From positions 62,001 to 126,000 of the forward strand of contig CACNWB010000001.1 in the NCBI GenBank assembly GCA_902624095.1: 64,000 nt of DNA, in the 5' to 3' direction. The notes under the pieces were generated by a model. That model saw only the letters and a program-made list of their open reading frames with translations, was not told where the DNA came from and made no database searches. Below, in pieces: positions 49,164 through 62,847 of the stretch. The translations under genes were made by a program, and so were the position numbers. Position 1 is the stretch's first letter; the number at the start of each line of letters is the position of its first letter. Source of the DNA: an uncultured PS1 clade bacterium. GTDB taxonomy: Bacteria > Pseudomonadota > Alphaproteobacteria > RS24.

Positions 49164-50288
49164 ATGAATTTCGATTTTTCCGATGATCAAAAAATGCTCA
49201 AGGATCAGGCACGCAAGTTTCTGGACGACACGTGCACGCTTGACCATGTGCGAAAAATTCTCGAAGGCGATGCCAGCCATGATGATGCCGTGTGGAAGGG
49301 CTTGTGCGATCTGGGATTTGCCGGGGCCGCCATTCCGGAGGAGTTTGGCGGGCTGGGTCTTGGCCCGCTGGAACTATGCGTGTTGGCTGAGGAATTGGGC
49401 CGCTGCGTGGCGCCTGTTCCGTTCAGTTCATCCATTTATCTGGCTGCTGAAGCGCTGAAAAATTTTGGCAATCAGACACAAAAAGAAACATGGCTGCCGC
49501 AACTGGCAACCGGCGCTTGTATTGGCACACTTTCGGCTTCGGAAGGCACCCAGCCGCCGTCACCGGCGACTGTTAAAACTACTTTTGCCGATGGCAAGCT
49601 GAACGGTACAAAAATTCCGGTTGCCGATGCCATGATTGCTGGGCTCGCCATTGTGCTGGCAAATACCGGTGGCAAGGGCGAACGCGCATTGTCTCTGGTC
49701 GCTGTGGATCTGAGTGCCGAGGGCATCAATCGCCGCGAGGTTGAAACCATTGACCCAACGCGCGGGCATGGCGAAATAGTTTTTGAAAACGCACCCGCCA
49801 CGCTTGTTGGCAAGGAAGGTGATGGCTGGGACAATTACCGGCGTATTGAAGCCGGCGCTGCTGTGCTTGTTGCCTTCGAGCAGGTTGGCGGGGCGGAAGC
49901 TGCCATGAATATGGCAAAAGAATATGCGTTGGAGCGCTATGCTTTCGGGCGCCAGATTGGGTCGTATCAGGCAATCAAACACAAAATTGCCGACATGTAT
50001 GTCAAACTGGAATTGGCTCGCTCTAACGCTTATTATGGAGCTATGGCATTTGCTGAAGATGCCGGTGATTTGGAACTTGCGGCCGCTGCCGCTCGCATTT
50101 CTGCAACGGAAGCCTATCGCTTTGCGGCGCAGGAAAGTATTCAGGTGCATGGCGGCATTGGTTTTACCTGGGAAGCCAATACGCAGTTTCATTATCGCCG
50201 TTCGAAATTGCTGGCTCTGTCACTTGGCAGTGCCAGTCGCTGGAAAGACCGTCTGGTCAGTGAACTTGAAAAAAGCAATGTGGCCTGA
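49164..50288 (+). CDS. Acyl-CoA dehydrogenase, first of a pair (small-subunit type)
   Basis: 374 residues, FAD flavoprotein fold. Recognised by AAIPEEFGGLGLGPLELCVL, GTLSASEGTQPPSPATVK at the FAD site, YAFGRQIGSYQAIKHKIADM and ESIQVHGGIGFTWEANTQFH. It lacks the usual IYEGTSEIQR-type motif that carries the catalytic Glu in short-chain enzymes. It resembles the small subunits of heteromeric acyl-CoA dehydrogenases from steroid-type side-chain degradation. The partner gene follows 60 bases later. Confidence 0.88.
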   Translation: MNFDFSDDQKMLKDQARKFLDDTCTLDHVRKILEGDASHDDAVWKGLCDLGFAGAAIPEEFGGLGLGPLELCVLAEELGRCVAPVPFSSSIYLAAEALKNFGNQTQKETWLPQLATGACIGTLSASEGTQPPSPATVKTTFADGKLNGTKIPVADAMIAGLAIVLANTGGKGERALSLVAVDLSAEGINRREVETIDPTRGHGEIVFENAPATLVGKEGDGWDNYRRIEAGAAVLVAFEQVGGAEAAMNMAKEYALERYAFGRQIGSYQAIKHKIADMYVKLELARSNAYYGAMAFAEDAGDLELAAAAARISATEAYRFAAQESIQVHGGIGFTWEANTQFHYRRSKLLALSLGSASRWKDRLVSELEKSNVA

Positions 50289-50348
50289 TGCTGCTCACCT
50301 GCATCAGCCAGCATAAAACGCACCTGTAGTTTAGGAAGGAAAGTTAAA

Positions 50349-51587
50349 ATGGACTTTAACGATACCCCCGAAGAAGCAAAGTTTCGTGTCGAGGTGAGGG
50401 CATGGCTGGAAGCCAATGCCAAGCCGAAAGATCCGAACAAGGCGCGGGCTGGCCGCTCGAATAAGGCTGAGGCCGACCGTCTGGCAAGCGCGCGCGTCTG
50501 GCAGGCCAAAAAAGCCGAAGCCGGCTACGCCGCGATCACCTGGCCGACAGAGTTTGGCGGTTTGGGCGGCTCATCAATACAATCGGTCATTTATTCGCAG
50601 GAAGAATCGAATTTCGAAGTACCCGGCGGGTTTTTCGATATCGGGCTGGGCATGTGCATTCCCACCATGATGGCGTGGGCCACGAAGGAGCAAAATGAAC
50701 GCTTTGTGAAGCCGGCGCTTTATGGCGAAGAAATCTGGTGCCAATTGTTTTCGGAGCCATCCGCCGGTTCGGACGTTGCGGGCTTGCGTACCAAGGCCGA
50801 ACGCGACGGCGATGACTGGGTAATCAACGGACAAAAAGTCTGGACGTCGGGTGCGCATTATTGCGATTACGGCATTATCGTTACGCGCTCGGATCCGACC
50901 GCGCCGAAGCATAAGGGGCTCACATTTTTCTTCCTCGACATGAAGTCGCCGGGAATTGAAGTGCGACCGATCAAGCAAATATCGGGTGAGTCAAACTTCA
51001 ATGAAGTATTCTTTACCGATGTGCGCGTGCCCGACAGCCAGCGTCTTGGTGATGTGGGCGAGGGCTGGAAAGTTGCGCTGACAACTTTGATGAATGAGCG
51101 TCTTGCCATTGGTCAGGGCAGTGGCGTTGACTATACCGAATTGTTGAAGCTGGCGCGCCAAACCGAACTGGAAACTGGCCCGGCCATCAAAGACGCCAAT
51201 GTGCGCGAGCATCTGGCAGACTGGTATGTCGAAACACAAGGTCTGAAATACACCAAATTCAGAACGCTGACGGCGCTTTCCAAAGGCGAAACGCCGGGCC
51301 CAGAAAGCTCGATTGGCAAAATAGTCTCCGGTCCCAAAATGCAGGACTTGGCCTCTTTCGCTATGGATTTGCAGGGACAAGGCGGCATTTTGCAAGGCGA
51401 TGAAGATGCTGAAATGAACGCGGCGTTTCAAAACCAGTGGATGTGGGGTGCCGGCTATCGCATTGCCGGTGGCACGGATGAAATCTTGCGCAATATTGTC
51501 TCCGAGCAGGTGCTTGGCCTGCCGCAAGATATTCGTGTCGATAAAAAAGTGCCGTTTAACGAATTGCCGGGGAGTGGCCGCAAATAA
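50349..51587 (+). CDS. Acyl-CoA dehydrogenase, second of a pair (large-subunit type)
   Basis: 412 residues. FAD/substrate motifs LFSEPSAGSDVAGLRTKAER, VINGQKVWTSGAHYCDYGII, and the C-terminal YRIAGGTDEILRNIVSEQVL. Instead of the usual Tyr-Glu-Gly catalytic segment it has AGGT. The paired arrangement with the preceding gene suggests an alpha2-beta2 enzyme oxidising an unknown, perhaps bulky, acyl-CoA. A GGAAGGAAAG-rich site precedes the ATG. A strong terminator follows. Confidence 0.88.
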   Translation: MDFNDTPEEAKFRVEVRAWLEANAKPKDPNKARAGRSNKAEADRLASARVWQAKKAEAGYAAITWPTEFGGLGGSSIQSVIYSQEESNFEVPGGFFDIGLGMCIPTMMAWATKEQNERFVKPALYGEEIWCQLFSEPSAGSDVAGLRTKAERDGDDWVINGQKVWTSGAHYCDYGIIVTRSDPTAPKHKGLTFFFLDMKSPGIEVRPIKQISGESNFNEVFFTDVRVPDSQRLGDVGEGWKVALTTLMNERLAIGQGSGVDYTELLKLARQTELETGPAIKDANVREHLADWYVETQGLKYTKFRTLTALSKGETPGPESSIGKIVSGPKMQDLASFAMDLQGQGGILQGDEDAEMNAAFQNQWMWGAGYRIAGGTDEILRNIVSEQVLGLPQDIRVDKKVPFNELPGSGRK

Positions 51588-56386: not shown

Positions 56387-57574
56387 ATGGATGTAGATTT
56401 TACGCCAGAAGACATAGCTTTCCGCGAGGAAGTGCGGAGCTTTATTGAAGAAAACTACCCAAAGCATTTGGGCTCGTTGGATCGCGGTGACATGACCAAG
56501 GAAGATCTGCTTGCTTGGCACAAAATCTTGCATACCAAAGGCTGGGTTGCACCAAGTTGGCCGGCAGAATTCGGCGGCACGGATTGGACAGTGACGCAGC
56601 GCTATATTTTTAATGAAGAAAGCGCCCGACACGGCACTATTCCTCCCATGCCGTTCGGCGTGCAAATGCTTGGACCGGTGATTTACACCTTTGGCAATCA
56701 AGAGCAAAAAGACTGGGTTTTGCCCGGTATTTTGTCCGGTAAGGACTGGTGGTGTCAGGGCTATTCAGAGCCCGGCGCGGGTTCCGACCTTGCCGCTTTG
56801 AAAACTAAAGCTGTGCTTGAAGACGACGAATATGTCGTCAATGGCCATAAAATCTGGACAACTTTGGCCCAACATGCCGATTGGATGTTCTGCCTCGTGC
56901 GCACGACATCGGGCGAAAAGCGCCAAGACGGGATATCCTTCCTGCTCATCGACATGAAAACGCCGGGCATTACCGTGCGCCCGATCATCACCATTGATGG
57001 CGGCCATGAAGTTAACGAAGTGTTTCTGGAGGATGTGCGTGTACCAGCGAGAAATTTGGTCGGCGAACGAGACAAAGGCTGGACTATTGCAAAGTTTTTG
57101 CTAGGGAATGAGCGTTCCGGCATTGCTGGCGTTGCGCGGTCGAAAAAAGCCATTGACCGGTTGCGCGAGATTGCGCGCGGCGAGTTGGAAAATGGAGGCC
57201 CGCTGCTATCATCGGCTGATTTCTCACGCAAAATTGCCGAATTGGAAGTCGACCTGACTGCGCTTGAATATACTGAATTGCGGACGCTGGCGGCTGAAAG
57301 CCAAGGGCAGGGGCCGGGGCCGGAAAGCTCGATCCTCAAAATCAAAGGTACTGAAATTCAGCAACGCATCACCGAGCTGACAATGGAAGCCGTGGGCAAT
57401 TATGCCGCGCCATGGGTGCCGCAATTGGATGTCGGCGACAATTATCTGGCGATTGGGCCGGAACAAAGTCACGGTGTTTCGCAAACATATTTTAATACGC
57501 GCAAAACATCGATTTATGGTGGATCAAACGAGATCCAACGTAATATCATTGCAAAAATGGTGCTTGGCCTGTAA
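56387..57574 (+). CDS. Acyl-CoA dehydrogenase, large-subunit type (first of second pair)
   Basis: 395 residues. WCQGYSEPGAGSDLAALKTK (FAD), VNGHKIWTTLAQHADWMFCL, and C-terminal IYGGSNEIQRNIIAKMVLGL. The glycine in IYGGS replaces the catalytic-position Glu of short-chain enzymes. Clearly a paralogue of the gene at 59887-61098 (same WCQGYSEPG and SNEIQRNIIAK motifs). AAGGAG precedes the ATG. First gene of a five-gene run: two dehydrogenases, crotonase, monooxygenase-fold protein, dehydrogenase. Confidence 0.9.
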   Translation: MDVDFTPEDIAFREEVRSFIEENYPKHLGSLDRGDMTKEDLLAWHKILHTKGWVAPSWPAEFGGTDWTVTQRYIFNEESARHGTIPPMPFGVQMLGPVIYTFGNQEQKDWVLPGILSGKDWWCQGYSEPGAGSDLAALKTKAVLEDDEYVVNGHKIWTTLAQHADWMFCLVRTTSGEKRQDGISFLLIDMKTPGITVRPIITIDGGHEVNEVFLEDVRVPARNLVGERDKGWTIAKFLLGNERSGIAGVARSKKAIDRLREIARGELENGGPLLSSADFSRKIAELEVDLTALEYTELRTLAAESQGQGPGPESSILKIKGTEIQQRITELTMEAVGNYAAPWVPQLDVGDNYLAIGPEQSHGVSQTYFNTRKTSIYGGSNEIQRNIIAKMVLGL

Positions 57575-57633
57575 GGCCAAGAGCGACTAATTACAGGGCT
57601 TGAACATTAGACCTTAAGCACGGGGGAGTAATC

Positions 57634-58761
57634 GTGGATTTCAGTTTTACCGAGGAACAGACGCTGCTGCGCAACATGGTGCAGAGCTTCGTATCCGACA
57701 ATTATGATTTTGACATGCGGATGAAAATTGTTCGCAGCGAAGACGGCATGGATCGTGCGATCTGGCAGCAATTTGCCGAATTGGGTCTGCTGGCCGCGCC
57801 ATTTTCGGAAGAAATGGGCGGGCTGGATGGTGGCCCTGTCGAAACCATGGTGATTATGGAAGAGCTGGGTCGCGGTTTGGTAGTCGAGCCTTATTTACCG
57901 ACCATCGTGCTGTGCGGTGGTATTTTGAACCGTCACGGGTCGGCGGCACAAAAAGAAGGTCATCTGCCGGGCATTATTGCTGGTGAAAATATCTGGGCTC
58001 TCGCGTTCAACGAGCCGCAGGGCCGGTTTAACCTCGCCGATATTGTAACCTCGGCGCGTGCCGAGGGTGACGGTTATGTGCTGAACGGCGCCAAGGCCGT
58101 GGTTCTGGGCGGCCCGTGGGCAGACAAGCTGATTGTTTCGGCCCGCATTTCCGGCGATCAGCGCGACCGCGACGGTGTTGGCCTGTTTATCGTCGATAAA
58201 TCGGCTGACGGCGTGAGCACGCAAGATTATCCGACCGTTGATGGAGGACGCGCCAGCGAAGTGACGCTGGAAAATGTCACCGTCAGTGGCGATGCAATGA
58301 TTGGCGACGCTGGGTCCGGTCTCGACATTCTCGAAGAGGCGGTTGATTACGGCATTGCCGCCATATGCGCTGAAGCCATTGGGCACATGAAAATGCTCAA
58401 TGATGCGACAGTTGAATATTGCCGCACGCGTAAGCAATTTGGTGTGCCGATTGGCAGCTTCCAGGTCTTGCAACACCGCATGGTTGATATGTTCATGGAA
58501 TATGAGCAGTCGGTTTCCATGACCTATATGGTGAATATGAAGCTGAATGAAGACGCCGCCGCACGCGCTAAGGCCGCCGCTGGTGCAAAAGTGCAGATCG
58601 GCAAATCCGGTCGGTTCGTCGGTCAGCAAGCGGTGCAGTTGCATGGTGGCATGGGCATGACAGAAGAGCTGAATGTCGGCCACTTCTTTAAGCGGCTGAC
58701 CATGATCGACACACAGTTCGGTAATGTGGACCACCATCTGAAACGCTTTGCGGCCGCATAA
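57634..58761 (+). CDS. Acyl-CoA dehydrogenase, small-subunit type (second of second pair)
   Basis: 375 residues. Motifs: APFSEEMGGLDGGPVETMVI, ALAFNEPQGRFNLADI, EYCRTRKQFGVPIGSFQVLQ, VQLHGGMGMTEELNVGHFFK. The C-terminus has no YEGT/GGSNEIQR-type loop. The adjacent large-type gene suggests a heteromeric enzyme. GTG start with a GGGGGAG site. The crotonase follows 9 bases after its stop. Confidence 0.9.
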   Translation: MDFSFTEEQTLLRNMVQSFVSDNYDFDMRMKIVRSEDGMDRAIWQQFAELGLLAAPFSEEMGGLDGGPVETMVIMEELGRGLVVEPYLPTIVLCGGILNRHGSAAQKEGHLPGIIAGENIWALAFNEPQGRFNLADIVTSARAEGDGYVLNGAKAVVLGGPWADKLIVSARISGDQRDRDGVGLFIVDKSADGVSTQDYPTVDGGRASEVTLENVTVSGDAMIGDAGSGLDILEEAVDYGIAAICAEAIGHMKMLNDATVEYCRTRKQFGVPIGSFQVLQHRMVDMFMEYEQSVSMTYMVNMKLNEDAAARAKAAAGAKVQIGKSGRFVGQQAVQLHGGMGMTEELNVGHFFKRLTMIDTQFGNVDHHLKRFAAA

Positions 58762-58770
58762 GGCTGGCTT

Positions 58771-59562
58771 GTGCTTGATTACGATAAGCAGGGGCACTGT
58801 GTCACGCTGACTATCAATCGGCCGGACATGCGCAATGCGCTGGGCGAACCGGGTGACGGCGATGTTTTTGCCGAGGCTTGCGCGCGCATCAATCAAGACC
58901 GCTCTGCGCGATGCGTTATTCTGACAGGTGCGGGCTCGGCGTTTTCGGCTGGTGGCAATATCAAAGCCATGCAGGAAGGCCGCGCGCCCTTTGGCGGGCC
59001 GGGTGTGCATATTGCAGACAGCTACCGGCAGGGTATTCACCGCATTATTCGCAGTCTTTGGCAGCTTGAAGTGCCTGCAATTGCCGCGGTCAACGGCCCA
59101 GCAATCGGGCTGGGCAATGATGTCGCCAGCCTATGCGATATCCGCATTGCGGCAAAAAGCGCCATTTTTGGCGCGACTTTTTTAAAAATCGGGCTGATCC
59201 CCGGAGATGGCGGTGCATGGTTGCTGCCGCGTCAAATCGGTTTGTCGCGCGCCAGCGAATTGCTGTTTACCGGTAAGACAATTCCGGCCAAAACCGCAGC
59301 CGAATGGGGTCTTGTGTCTGAGGTCGTTGACGAGGACTCGCTCATGGAAACTGCACGCGCCTTGGCCGATGAAATTTGCGCGCAGAGTCCCGAAGCTTTG
59401 CGTGCCGCCAAACGGCTTCTACGCAGCGGGCAGAGCGCGTCTTTTGATACGGTGATGGAAATGTCGGCTACCACACAAGCCCTAATGCACCAAATGTCTG
59501 ACCACCAGGCAGCAATTAGAGCGATGCTTGACAAGGTTGAGGCTGATTACAAAGATGAATAA
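58771..59562 (+). CDS. Enoyl-CoA hydratase/isomerase (crotonase) family protein
   Basis: 263 residues. Oxyanion-hole segments VILTGAGSAFSAGGNIKAMQ and AVNGPAIGLGNDVASLCDIR; active-site region FLKIGLIPGDGGAWLLPRQI, in which GDGG replaces the common G-x-GG/Glu arrangement, as in several side-chain-degradation crotonases. Likely hydrates the product of the dehydrogenase pair before it. GTG start, 9 bases downstream of that pair. Confidence 0.9.
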   Translation: MLDYDKQGHCVTLTINRPDMRNALGEPGDGDVFAEACARINQDRSARCVILTGAGSAFSAGGNIKAMQEGRAPFGGPGVHIADSYRQGIHRIIRSLWQLEVPAIAAVNGPAIGLGNDVASLCDIRIAAKSAIFGATFLKIGLIPGDGGAWLLPRQIGLSRASELLFTGKTIPAKTAAEWGLVSEVVDEDSLMETARALADEICAQSPEALRAAKRLLRSGQSASFDTVMEMSATTQALMHQMSDHQAAIRAMLDKVEADYKDE

Positions 59563-59583
59563 TCAAGCGAGAAAGAGGGCAAA

Positions 59584-59877
59584 ATGGCAGTAGGAATTAT
59601 TGCAACATTGCGTGTTGTTGACGGCAAGCAAGCGGAATTTGAAACGGGCTTTGCCAAAATGCAGGAAGTAGTTAAGGCCGAGGAGACAGGGTGTTTGCTC
59701 TATGATCTGTGTCAAGACAAAGCTGACGCCACAACCTATCGGGTTATGGAACAATATACAGATGAAGATGCGCGACAGAGCCACGGCACATCGGATGCGT
59801 TCAAGGCGGCGGCTGGCGGTCTGGGCGGATGTCTGGCCGGAGCACCGGAACTAGTTGAAGTGAATATTATCAGTTAG
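59584..59877 (+). CDS. Antibiotic biosynthesis monooxygenase (ABM) fold protein
   Basis: 97 residues. Ferredoxin-like alpha+beta barrel of the ABM/quinol-monooxygenase group, seen in GIIATLRVVDGKQAEFETGF, VKAEETGCLLYDLCQDKA and YRVMEQYTDEDARQSHGTSD. Members act on quinones, heme or aldehydes, or are non-catalytic. Placed inside an acyl-CoA catabolic run, it may handle a side product, but this is a guess. Fits 21 bases after the crotonase stop. Confidence 0.85.
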   Translation: MAVGIIATLRVVDGKQAEFETGFAKMQEVVKAEETGCLLYDLCQDKADATTYRVMEQYTDEDARQSHGTSDAFKAAAGGLGGCLAGAPELVEVNIIS

Positions 59878-59886
59878 GAGCCATTC

Positions 59887-61098
59887 ATGGATTTAAAATA
59901 TACACAGGACGATTTGCTCTTCAGAGAAGAGGTTCGCGCGTTTATCAGCGAGGCATATACCCCTGATCTGCAACAACAAATGTCACGGTCTAAAAATGGG
60001 TATATGGGAAAAGATGCTCATGTATCTTGGCAAAAAAGGCTTTATGAAAAAGGCTGGGCGGCCCCGAATTGGCCAGTTGAACATGGCGGTGCCGGCTTTA
60101 GTCCAACGCAGAAATTTATTTTTACGCAGGAGATGGACTCTGCTGGCGCCCCTCATCCAATTGCGTTTGGCCTTGCTATGGTAGCCCCAGTTATTATGGC
60201 GTTCGGCTCCGATGAACAAAAGCAGCGTTTTCTTCCTGATATTCTAGCTTCGAACGTTTGGTGGTGTCAGGGATATTCAGAGCCAGGCTCGGGTTCTGAC
60301 TTGGCATCGTTGCAAATGAAGGCGGAAGACAAGGGTGATCACTATTTGTGTAATGGTTCAAAAATCTGGACGACCATGGCACAACATGCTGACTGGATCT
60401 TCTGCCTTGTGCGAACAGCAAAGACCGAAAAACGCCAGGAGGGTATTTCGTTTCTATTGATTGAGATGGATTCGCCAGGTGTAAAAGTTGCGCCATTGGT
60501 CACATTAGATGGTCCTGCTAAGGGCCAGCAAGAGATTAATCAGGTATTTTTCGAAGATGTCAAAGTGCCGAAAGAAAACCTGATCGGTGAAGAAAACAAA
60601 GGATGGACCTACGCTAAATACCTCCTCGAATTTGAGCGCGGCAATCCGTATTCGGCGGGGTTAAATCGCGCTTTGTCAAAGGTACGCAAGCTTGCAAATT
60701 CGGTTGCATCTGATGGAGAGACACTGGCTGATGATCCGGATTTTCAGCGCAAGGCTAATGATCTTGAGCGTCAAATTATGGCAATGGAGGCAACCGAGTT
60801 ACGTATTTTCTCCGAGATCAGCGCCGGTCAAAATATTGGTTCAGGATCTTCCTCGCTTCTCAAAACGCGCGGTACGGAAATCAAGCAGGATGTCGCTCAA
60901 CTGGCGGTTGAAGCTATTGGGCAATACGGGTTTCCATTTGTTTCGGATACGCAAAGTTCGGCCAATACGCCGGATGTTGGTCTTGACGGTGCGCCGATTA
61001 TAGTTCCATCTTACCTAAATAAGCGCAAAGAAACGATTTACGCTGGTTCAAATGAGATTCAGCGCAATATCATTGCAAAGGCTGTACTAGGGCTCTAA
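59887..61098 (+). CDS. Acyl-CoA dehydrogenase, large-subunit type, unpaired
   Basis: 403 residues. WWCQGYSEPGSGSDLASLQM, CNGSKIWTTMAQHADWIFCL, and IYAGSNEIQRNIIAKAVLGL. Paralogue of the gene at 56387. By eye its codons are more AT-ending than those of its neighbours (for example many TTA, CAA and AAA), hinting at a separate origin, though this is not measured. AGGAG precedes the ATG. A small-subunit partner is not adjacent. Followed by a terminator. Confidence 0.9.
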   Translation: MDLKYTQDDLLFREEVRAFISEAYTPDLQQQMSRSKNGYMGKDAHVSWQKRLYEKGWAAPNWPVEHGGAGFSPTQKFIFTQEMDSAGAPHPIAFGLAMVAPVIMAFGSDEQKQRFLPDILASNVWWCQGYSEPGSGSDLASLQMKAEDKGDHYLCNGSKIWTTMAQHADWIFCLVRTAKTEKRQEGISFLLIEMDSPGVKVAPLVTLDGPAKGQQEINQVFFEDVKVPKENLIGEENKGWTYAKYLLEFERGNPYSAGLNRALSKVRKLANSVASDGETLADDPDFQRKANDLERQIMAMEATELRIFSEISAGQNIGSGSSSLLKTRGTEIKQDVAQLAVEAIGQYGFPFVSDTQSSANTPDVGLDGAPIIVPSYLNKRKETIYAGSNEIQRNIIAKAVLGL

Positions 61099-61155: not shown

Positions 61156-62847
61156 CATCATGTAGCGGAGTCCGAGCAGTAGCGCGAATATGGCCAGAAA
61201 CAGACTGGCGGCGGCTCCGATGGTTGCCGTGCCCGAAATCAGATAATTATTGCGGCTGATATGCGTGCCCCGATCCACCGCCACCTTAATTTGGTGGGTG
61301 GTGCTGGCGAGGCCGGCGTGCCAAAGCCGCATAATGGGGTTTGCCACCATGCGCCAGAGGGCCGGAGCAGCCTTGCGGAACAACCAGTCCGTGTTCAAAA
61401 CCGTGCTGTCAATTTCCGGCGGATAAAGCCCGCGTACCATTAGGAAGGCAAAGGCCAGCACCGCGAATAACAGAAGTTGCAATTCGCCGAGCACATGGCC
61501 GGCATCCCACACCTTATAGGTCACCTCATACGGCAGAAGCGCATAGAGCATTTCCGGCGCGATACCAATGGCTACGCATAAGCCCGCGGCAATGCCCATG
61601 GCAATCAGCATGTTCAAAGGTGCTTCGTTAACCTTGAACCCGCGATCGTGTCCGAAGAAAGCGAAATAGGGGATTTTGATGCCGGAATGTTCCAGTACAC
61701 CAGCGGAAGCAAAAATCAACGCCATCCATACCCAGAAATATCCTTCATAGGCCGCGCTGCCAATGGTCAGTGATTTGGTCACAAAGCCGCTGAATAGCGG
61801 GAATGACGAGATCGACACCGCGCCGATGATGCAGAAGATGGTGGTCAGCGGCATGCGCTTCCATAAGCCGCCCAATTCGCTTGCCTTGGCCGTGCCGGTC
61901 CGAAAGAGAACCGCACCCATGCTCATGAATAAGAGCGATTTGTAGATAATATGCGCAAAGGCGTGTGCCACTGTGCCATTAAGTGCCAATTCGGTGCCAA
62001 TGCCGATGCCGACAACCATGAAACCGAGCTGGTTGTTGAGCGAAAACGCCAGCACGCGGCGCAAATCATTTTCGATGACAGCGAAAAATACCGGGAACAG
62101 GGTCATCACCACGCCGAACCAGATCAACATATGGGTGCTGGCAAAACAGAGCGCCAGCATGTAAATGGCGAGCTTCGTGGTAAACGCGCTCAGGATAACG
62201 GTGCCAGTGACGCTTGCTTCGGGATAAGCATCCTGCAACCAGCCATTGACGAATGGAAAAGCGGCTTTGATGGCGAAAGCCAAAAGCACAAGTGCACCGC
62301 CCAAGGTTTCCGCCGATAGGGAGGTGATGACGATGCCGCTGCCCGAGCTGACCAGCACCACTGCACCAGCCAGTAAAATCACTCCTGAGGTGACTTGTGT
62401 CAGTAAATAGCGCATGGCGGCCGCAAAACTGCGGGGGTTGCGTCCAGCGAGAATGAGGAAGACCGAGGTAAACGCCGTTAGCTCCCAATAGATGAACAGC
62501 GTTATGAAATCACCAGCAAAAAGAGCAGCAATGGCAGCGCCCGCGTAAGCGAGCCCCGAGGCCGCGGTCATGCGGCTGTCTTCGTGCATGGCGTATATGA
62601 CATTGAGTGCGGCCGCGATGTGAAAAACCAGCGCAAAGGGGCGCGTGATTGCCTCGGCGCGCACGAGAATAAGGTCAAAGCCGATAACACTGGATGTGAG
62701 ATGCACGCCGGGGTCAATGTGCCAGCACTGGTAGGTCGATGCCGCAATCAGCACAAGCATCCATATCTGCCGAATCGTATGGGGCAGAACCGGTACTAGA
62801 GCTGCACCGAGGATCATCATAAGGCCGGGTAGCAAAAGCTCAGGCAT
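61153..62847 (-). CDS. Proton/cation antiporter subunit D-like membrane protein (MrpD/NuoL superfamily)
   Basis: 564 residues, about 14-16 membrane helices. The proton-pathway residues of the family are present: Glu in GDFITLFIYWELTAFTSVF and Lys in LLAFAIKAAFPFVNGWLQDA; the usual His after PF is replaced by Val-Asn. AHIIYKSLLFMSMGAVLFRT is the second lysine helix. ATG at 62847 overlaps the preceding gene by 8 bases with GGAGGA upstream. Subunit of an Mrp-type antiporter or a related ion pump. Confidence 0.88.
   Translation of the reverse strand: MPELLLPGLMMILGAALVPVLPHTIRQIWMLVLIAASTYQCWHIDPGVHLTSSVIGFDLILVRAEAITRPFALVFHIAAALNVIYAMHEDSRMTAASGLAYAGAAIAALFAGDFITLFIYWELTAFTSVFLILAGRNPRSFAAAMRYLLTQVTSGVILLAGAVVLVSSGSGIVITSLSAETLGGALVLLAFAIKAAFPFVNGWLQDAYPEASVTGTVILSAFTTKLAIYMLALCFASTHMLIWFGVVMTLFPVFFAVIENDLRRVLAFSLNNQLGFMVVGIGIGTELALNGTVAHAFAHIIYKSLLFMSMGAVLFRTGTAKASELGGLWKRMPLTTIFCIIGAVSISSFPLFSGFVTKSLTIGSAAYEGYFWVWMALIFASAGVLEHSGIKIPYFAFFGHDRGFKVNEAPLNMLIAMGIAAGLCVAIGIAPEMLYALLPYEVTYKVWDAGHVLGELQLLLFAVLAFAFLMVRGLYPPEIDSTVLNTDWLFRKAAPALWRMVANPIMRLWHAGLASTTHQIKVAVDRGTHISRNNYLISGTATIGAAASLFLAIFALLLGLRYMM

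Follow-up and report, generated by a model that had tools for sequence, protein, structure and literature searches.

Which beta partner serves an acyl-CoA dehydrogenase (ACAD) of the large, alpha type when the only beta gene of its cluster lies beside another alpha gene? This question is raised by five adjacent genes in a 64,000-nucleotide stretch of DNA (the window) from an uncultured PS1 clade bacterium, positions 62,001 to 126,000 of contig CACNWB010000001.1 (G000:C1:62001-126000 in our numbering), whose assembly of 1.55 Mb is estimated to be 73 percent complete. The genes encode three dehydrogenases, ACAD1, ACAD2 and ACAD3, together with a crotonase and a small ABM-fold protein. The cluster is of a known kind, and its real twist is a second, unpaired alpha subunit tied to the ABM-fold protein. 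We regard it as an evenly balanced proposition that this is a conserved beta-oxidation-type cluster in which ACAD3 would be an alternative alpha subunit on ACAD2. The five genes are as follows.

56387..57574, plus strand: ACAD1, predicted alpha (large) subunit of a PimC-type heteromeric acyl-CoA dehydrogenase, 395 amino acids, Pfam ACAD N, M and C domains
57634..58761, plus strand: ACAD2, predicted beta (small) subunit, PimD-type, 375 amino acids, GTG start
58771..59562, plus strand: crotonase (ECH) of the PRK09245 subfamily, 263 amino acids, GTG start
59584..59877, plus strand: ABM-fold protein, 97 amino acids, PF03992
59887..61098, plus strand: ACAD3, predicted second alpha subunit with no beta gene of its own, 403 amino acids

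The five open reading frames (ORFs) share one strand and are separated by gaps of 59, 9, 21 and 9 bases. Pfam recovered three full ACADs, one crotonase (PF00378, 2.6e-51) and one ABM domain (PF03992, 1.2e-17), far beyond chance. A sequence-only reading of this DNA had described the same run, and the ORF list and Pfam confirmed its genes, order and coordinates, with neither a thiolase nor a ligase inside it.

Complementary motifs of ACAD1 and ACAD2

The SEPGxGSD, R-x-x-F and H-G-G motifs have recognised roles in ACADs. In alignments read by eye, ACAD1 and ACAD3 keep SEPGxGSD (SEPGAGSD in ACAD1) and the helix-G Glu and are without R-x-x-F...Q and Q-x-H-G-G, and ACAD2 shows the reverse, with RKQFG...Q and QLHGGMG present and SEPxxGSD and the helix-G Glu absent. 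In alpha2beta2 ACADs, as described in an excerpt of PMC8399759, the catalytic Glu occurs in one subunit only and flavin adenine dinucleotide (FAD) lies between the subunits, one per heterodimer. The large/small pair named in the earlier reading is thus upheld by adjacency and by complementary motifs, and these motifs indicate that ACAD1 and ACAD2 very probably form an alpha2beta2 heterotetramer of the PimCD/ChsE type.

The pimC and pimD families are the top family matches for all three dehydrogenases. ACAD1 scored 488 bits against TIGR03204 pimC (cut-off 623.85), ACAD2 scored 456 bits against TIGR03203 pimD (cut-off 652.7) and ACAD3 scored 424 bits against TIGR03204; by the curated cut-offs ACAD1 and ACAD2 do not rank as PimC/PimD equivalogs, and because the scores fall below these values their substrate may differ from that of PimCD. 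The best pimC match was the ACAD1 orthologue in all of six genomes and exceeded the cut-off in none of them. Chain A of 4x28, which we take to be a steroid ACAD subunit of ChsE4-ChsE5, was the best PDB sequence match for both ACAD1 and ACAD3. ACAD2 matched isovaleryl-CoA dehydrogenases first (4kto, 153 bits), followed by, among others, 6wy8 chain A (132 bits) and 4x28 chain D (101 bits).

Conservation of the five-gene set

The earlier reading had proposed a dedicated module, which a lack of conservation beyond this genome would have spoken against; the neighbourhood comparison found the set elsewhere. The crotonase search, in which one of six patterns was IPGDGGAW, gave 548 confirmed loci, and the best 80 were compared over flanks of at most 8 kb. 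Counts rest on tblastn, and automatic gene calls, often antisense ORFs in high-GC loci, served as a guide only. Of the 80 loci, 14 carry the complete set with order and strand unchanged (L040-L044, L046, L048, L049, L051, L052, L056, L072, L096 and L103), with one gene partial at a contig end in L043, L049 and L052. Five loci (L047, L050, L057, L058, L063) held the other four genes without ABM, another 14 loci had between two and four of the genes, several being ended by a contig edge, and in 47 loci the crotonase stood alone within the flank, some of these genomes carrying the remaining genes elsewhere. As in the window, ACAD1 is preceded by dusA (Pfam Dus) in L041, L064, L072 and L097.

Within the family (61 genomes, our own and 60 relatives), a close ABM (at least 56 percent identity) was found in 19 of 28 genomes, and ACAD3 adjoins ABM in all 19 family loci (L009-L027). 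One of these, L016, comes from a different genus in the family and has ACAD2 followed by ABM and ACAD3, with no crotonase between. As ABM is missing in five loci and the crotonase in L016, each appears dispensable. The closest named record among the matches listed, from which very near records may be missing, was Rhodobiaceae bacterium UBA7378, at 93 percent for the crotonase, followed by metagenome-assembled genomes of the PS1 clade and Rhodobiaceae. The recurrence across loci and genomes means that the cluster is old, and it was probably passed on mostly by vertical descent.

Genes lying between ACAD2 and the crotonase in other lineages were left out of the set because they differ from lineage to lineage in the three tested by Pfam. 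The intervening gene encodes a histidine kinase in L048; in L083, with no ACAD2 detected close by, it encodes an Ada/AlkA protein. In L063 (2797-4525) a protein with reverse transcriptase and TIR domains (RVT_1, TIR_2), perhaps a defence-type insertion, lies between ACAD1 and ACAD2.

ACAD3 as a second alpha subunit

The earlier reading had called ACAD3 a paralogous large-type dehydrogenase; it is indeed a large-type ACAD and, more exactly, an alpha subunit without a beta. It carries alpha motifs only. Alphas and betas were counted by eye in two genomes. The relative G007 (estimated 100 percent complete) has eight alphas and five betas among 24 PF00441 matches; the five betas lie beside five alphas, leaving over ACAD3, C2:13752 and C2:247587, of which C2:13752 adjoins an alpha-beta pair. 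Caulobacter G066 has seven alphas and six betas among 26 PF00441 matches; each beta has one alpha near it, directly adjacent in five cases and about 3.2 kb off in the sixth, and ACAD3, whose nearest beta is about 44 kb away, is the only alpha over. Alpha-type genes thus outnumber beta-type genes in both. Automatic sorting, which had given 7 alpha, 6 beta, 8 canonical and 3 other for G007 and 6, 10, 5 and 5 for G066, misplaced proteins with unusual motifs; on re-reading, g7_L144 and g66_L175 were moved to alpha and g66_L180_+1717 to beta, and g7_L139 and g66_L178, L159, L163, L161 and L162 were removed from beta. The ACAD-fold proteins in loci L155, L130 and L131, by eye without alpha and beta motifs, are perhaps flavin monooxygenases, and the best match of the one in L155 was Acyl-CoA_dh_2.

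In a 24-row tree, the ACAD3 orthologues, C2:13752 and an alpha on contig C8 of our own genome, which has no beta beside it, formed one clade (95/94). This clade sits inside a ten-row group (99/97, inner order open), together with the ACAD1 clade, C2:247587 and a paired Caulobacter alpha. A second alpha-alpha-beta triple was observed at G007:C2:13074-16716 (L152, L153), its first alpha belonging to the ACAD3 clade.

Co-occurrence was scored in the 30 genomes to which 30 of the 80 PRK09245 loci led, uncorrected for kinship, with orthologue cut-offs of our own choosing (E up to 1e-130 for ACAD2 and up to 1e-145 for ACAD3). An ACAD2 orthologue was found in 24 genomes and ACAD3 in 22, including a partial one in G068. 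None of the 22 ACAD3-bearing genomes lacked ACAD2; two (G067 and G079) had ACAD2 without ACAD3, and six had neither. This pattern fits a beta common to ACAD1 and ACAD3, and the use of ACAD2 by ACAD3 as well as by ACAD1 may be put at about an even chance.

The alternative that survives best keeps the ACAD1-ACAD2 heterotetramer and has ACAD3 act alone or with another beta, its linkage being due to common history and a shared promoter. In Caulobacter G066 and Sneathiella G086, ACAD3 lies far from ACAD2 or on a separate contig, further betas exist in G007 and G066, and the ACAD3 clade includes more alphas that have no beta to themselves, all of which favour it; yet ACAD3 lacks the beta-side motifs, each beta in the two counted genomes has as its neighbour some alpha that is not ACAD3 (for ACAD2 it is ACAD1), and ACAD3 never occurred without ACAD2 in the co-occurrence test. 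We consider this alternative possible, on the doubtful side of even.

The ABM-fold protein

The ABM-fold protein passed PF03992 with 64.3 bits (gathering score 23.1), a match to a fold that says nothing on monooxygenase activity. The earlier reading had taken it for a non-standard member of such a run, and this did not hold. In the 30 genomes, an ABM match was present in 22, and in 16 of these it lay just upstream of ACAD3 in the same orientation, even with ACAD1-ACAD2 on another contig (G066, G069, G073). The distance was at most 45 bases in 14 genomes, about 400 bases in G078 and about 470 bases in G076; in G078 (locus L096) the two genes are separated by another, weak match to ABM. Because of this position, the ABM-fold protein is a regular partner of ACAD3 and no intruder, and its role would be with ACAD3 or with the product of ACAD3. 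In the other six ABM-bearing genomes, no ACAD3 was found (G067, G079) or ABM lies elsewhere (G062, G064, G068, G082), the ACAD3 of G068 being ended by a contig edge.

An alignment of 40 ABM rows, in which L009 is the window's own copy, showed F19, V30, E34, G36, Y40, E56, Y58, H67 and P88 in 40 of 40 rows, an invariance inflated by near-identical family members. The nearest solved relative was PDB 3bm7 (5.1e-20), presumably CC_2132 of Caulobacter crescentus, with 1x7v and LsrG distant. In the open-licence literature searched, no paper joined pimeloyl-CoA dehydrogenase with ABM, ABM with ACAD and Caulobacter, or the PS1 clade with ACAD, and the matches listed for CC_2130-2132 appear unrelated, judged from titles and abstract openings.

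Several observations weigh against the shared-beta reading or its parts. ACAD2 is closest to isovaleryl-CoA dehydrogenases, ahead of the 6wy8 and 4x28 chains, and both ACAD1 and ACAD2 fall below the PimC/PimD cut-offs, as does the best pimC match in each of the six genomes. The alpha and beta counts come from two genomes read by eye, and the 30 genomes were picked for their PRK09245 locus without correction for kinship. Two of them have ACAD2 without ACAD3, ACAD2 and ACAD3 are unlinked in G066 and G086, and six ABM-bearing genomes have ABM away from ACAD3 or no ACAD3 at all. ABM is missing between crotonase and ACAD3 in five loci, and the crotonase itself is missing in L016.

The crotonase

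The crotonase passed NF006699 (PRK09245) with 382.7 bits (cut-off 354), and its nearest solved relative was 7mcm. It holds I-P-G-D-G-G, and the GDGG that the earlier reading thought unusual proved to be a subfamily signature, since Asp117, Phe137 and GDGG are common to 81 of 81 aligned members, GDGG being partly selected by the IPGDGGAW pattern. Asp117 and Phe137 occupy the positions of the classical hydratase pair (Glu144/Glu164 of the rat enzyme), so the two catalytic Glu of a classical enoyl-CoA hydratase are replaced here. Its chemistry is probably isomerase-like or otherwise non-classical and may still include hydration. Two other crotonases of the genome (L188 and L196, on contigs C23 and C15) have Glu/Glu, and ordinary hydration could therefore take place elsewhere.

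Genes around the cluster

Mrp-type antiporter genes (Pfam Proton_antipo_M in three, MNHE in one) run on the minus strand from 61153 past the window end. Behind them lie three further genes.

G000:C1:130748-131659, minus strand: short-chain dehydrogenase/reductase (SDR), about 7.6 kb downstream of ACAD3
G000:C1:131843-132955, minus strand: luciferase-like monooxygenase, TIGR03558, over cut-off
G000:C1:133029-134726, plus strand: CoA ligase, about 9.9 kb downstream of ACAD3, window coordinate 71029

The contig ends after the CoA ligase, and G007 keeps the same gene order. An SDR follows ACAD3 on the opposite strand at 0.7 to 4.8 kb in 10 of 27 ACAD3-bearing loci and was not in the stretch covered for the other 17; it lies within about 1 kb of ACAD3 in L048, L056 and L082, and the Mrp genes intervene in G000 and G007. 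The thiolase matches of G000 are on contigs C5, C7, C12 and C26. The earlier statement that the pathway is incomplete therefore stands for the run, which has no thiolase or ligase, but the gap narrows beyond it, where the SDR and the CoA ligase lie, with thiolases on other contigs. The luciferase-like monooxygenase and a CoA ligase are divergent at L182:7344-10227, and a homologue of the monooxygenase lies near the cluster in L048 too.

Another dehydrogenase pair at window positions 49164-51587 is also a beta-alpha pair, beta first, with an IpdE2-like beta (163 bits) and a pimC-like alpha (227 bits), both below cut-off; the two pairs are a few kb apart in G007 too. Between 55900 and 61300, promoter-like sites numbered 5 where 5.3 were expected, which is no signal, and terminator-like sites numbered 17 where 7.2 were expected (standard deviation 2.3), an excess with the majority within genes.

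Proposed function

In the proposed mechanism, ACAD1 and ACAD2 would form an alpha2beta2 dehydrogenase in which the catalytic Glu comes from the alpha, along with part of the FAD site, and the remainder from the beta, and ACAD3 would be an alternative alpha with the same beta, so that swapping the alpha changes the substrate range. The crotonase, because both classical hydratase Glu are lacking, would most likely shift or otherwise process the new double bond instead of simply hydrating it. The SDR may oxidize a 3-hydroxyacyl-CoA, the CoA ligase may supply the substrate, and thiolysis and classical hydration would be left to unlinked enzymes. The ABM-fold protein would work with the ACAD3 branch, perhaps on the ACAD3 product.

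By analogy with PimCD, medium-chain acyl-CoA or dicarboxylyl-CoA is our tentative substrate class. In RB-TnSeq (barcoded transposon sequencing) of beta-proteobacteria, an excerpt of PMC12543098 reports that a PimCD-like pair, possibly a heterotetramer, was required in Ralstonia on C8-C12 dicarboxylic acids. A steroid side-chain or C/D-ring module is unlikely: both alphas have 4x28 chain A as their closest solved sequence and the best NCBIfam match of the ligase is steroid-24-oyl-CoA synthetase, but that match lies far below its cut-off (440 against 750 bits) and pimC and pimD are the best families for all three dehydrogenases. No steroid genes are shown here, no search having been aimed at the steroid ring genes IpdAB, KshA and HsaC. 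Least probable of all is a catalytically dead or regulatory ACAD3, which would suit the missing beta and second motif set but not the helix-G Glu and SEPGSGSD kept in the window, G007 and G066, nor the 55-74 percent identity to 21 full-length orthologues.

On the preferred reading of ACAD3 as an alternative alpha on ACAD2, it is conceivable, somewhat short of an even chance, that one beta serves two alphas of different substrates and that the second alpha is tied to an ABM-fold protein acting on or protecting its product. If true, ACADs would divide their work in a way that is new, and the structural-genomics orphan 3bm7 would gain its first context. With a shared beta, assays on ACAD3-type proteins by themselves would fail, and losing one beta would remove two activities. 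The nearest solved relative of the ABM-fold protein has no assigned function, and the ABM-ACAD3 linkage gives a lead that can be tested. Wipperman 2013 is reported to describe a FadE with two possible partners, a point that carries no weight here.

Comparison with known systems

The crotonase resembles PaaG, the 1,2-epoxyphenylacetyl-CoA isomerase (4fzw chain C), in having Phe at the second Glu position; in PaaG, however, the Asp comes one residue earlier (IPDCGG against IPGDGG) and the first Glu position is Thr, here Asp. The 3bm7 protein is a homologue of our ABM-fold protein and its entry is listed as of unknown function; another Caulobacter, G066, has ABM directly before ACAD3. The pim operon is alike in that PimC and PimD are matched over their full length by adjacent large and small ACADs, and unlike in that the scores here fall below the cut-offs and the run has no thiolase, an extra alpha (ACAD3) and ABM. 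The mycobacterial ChsE4-ChsE5 and ChsE1-ChsE2 and Tcur3483/3481 (6wy8) share the complementary motif loss, and both alphas point to 4x28 chain A; in contrast to those systems, two alphas stand here against one beta whose top PDB match lies elsewhere.

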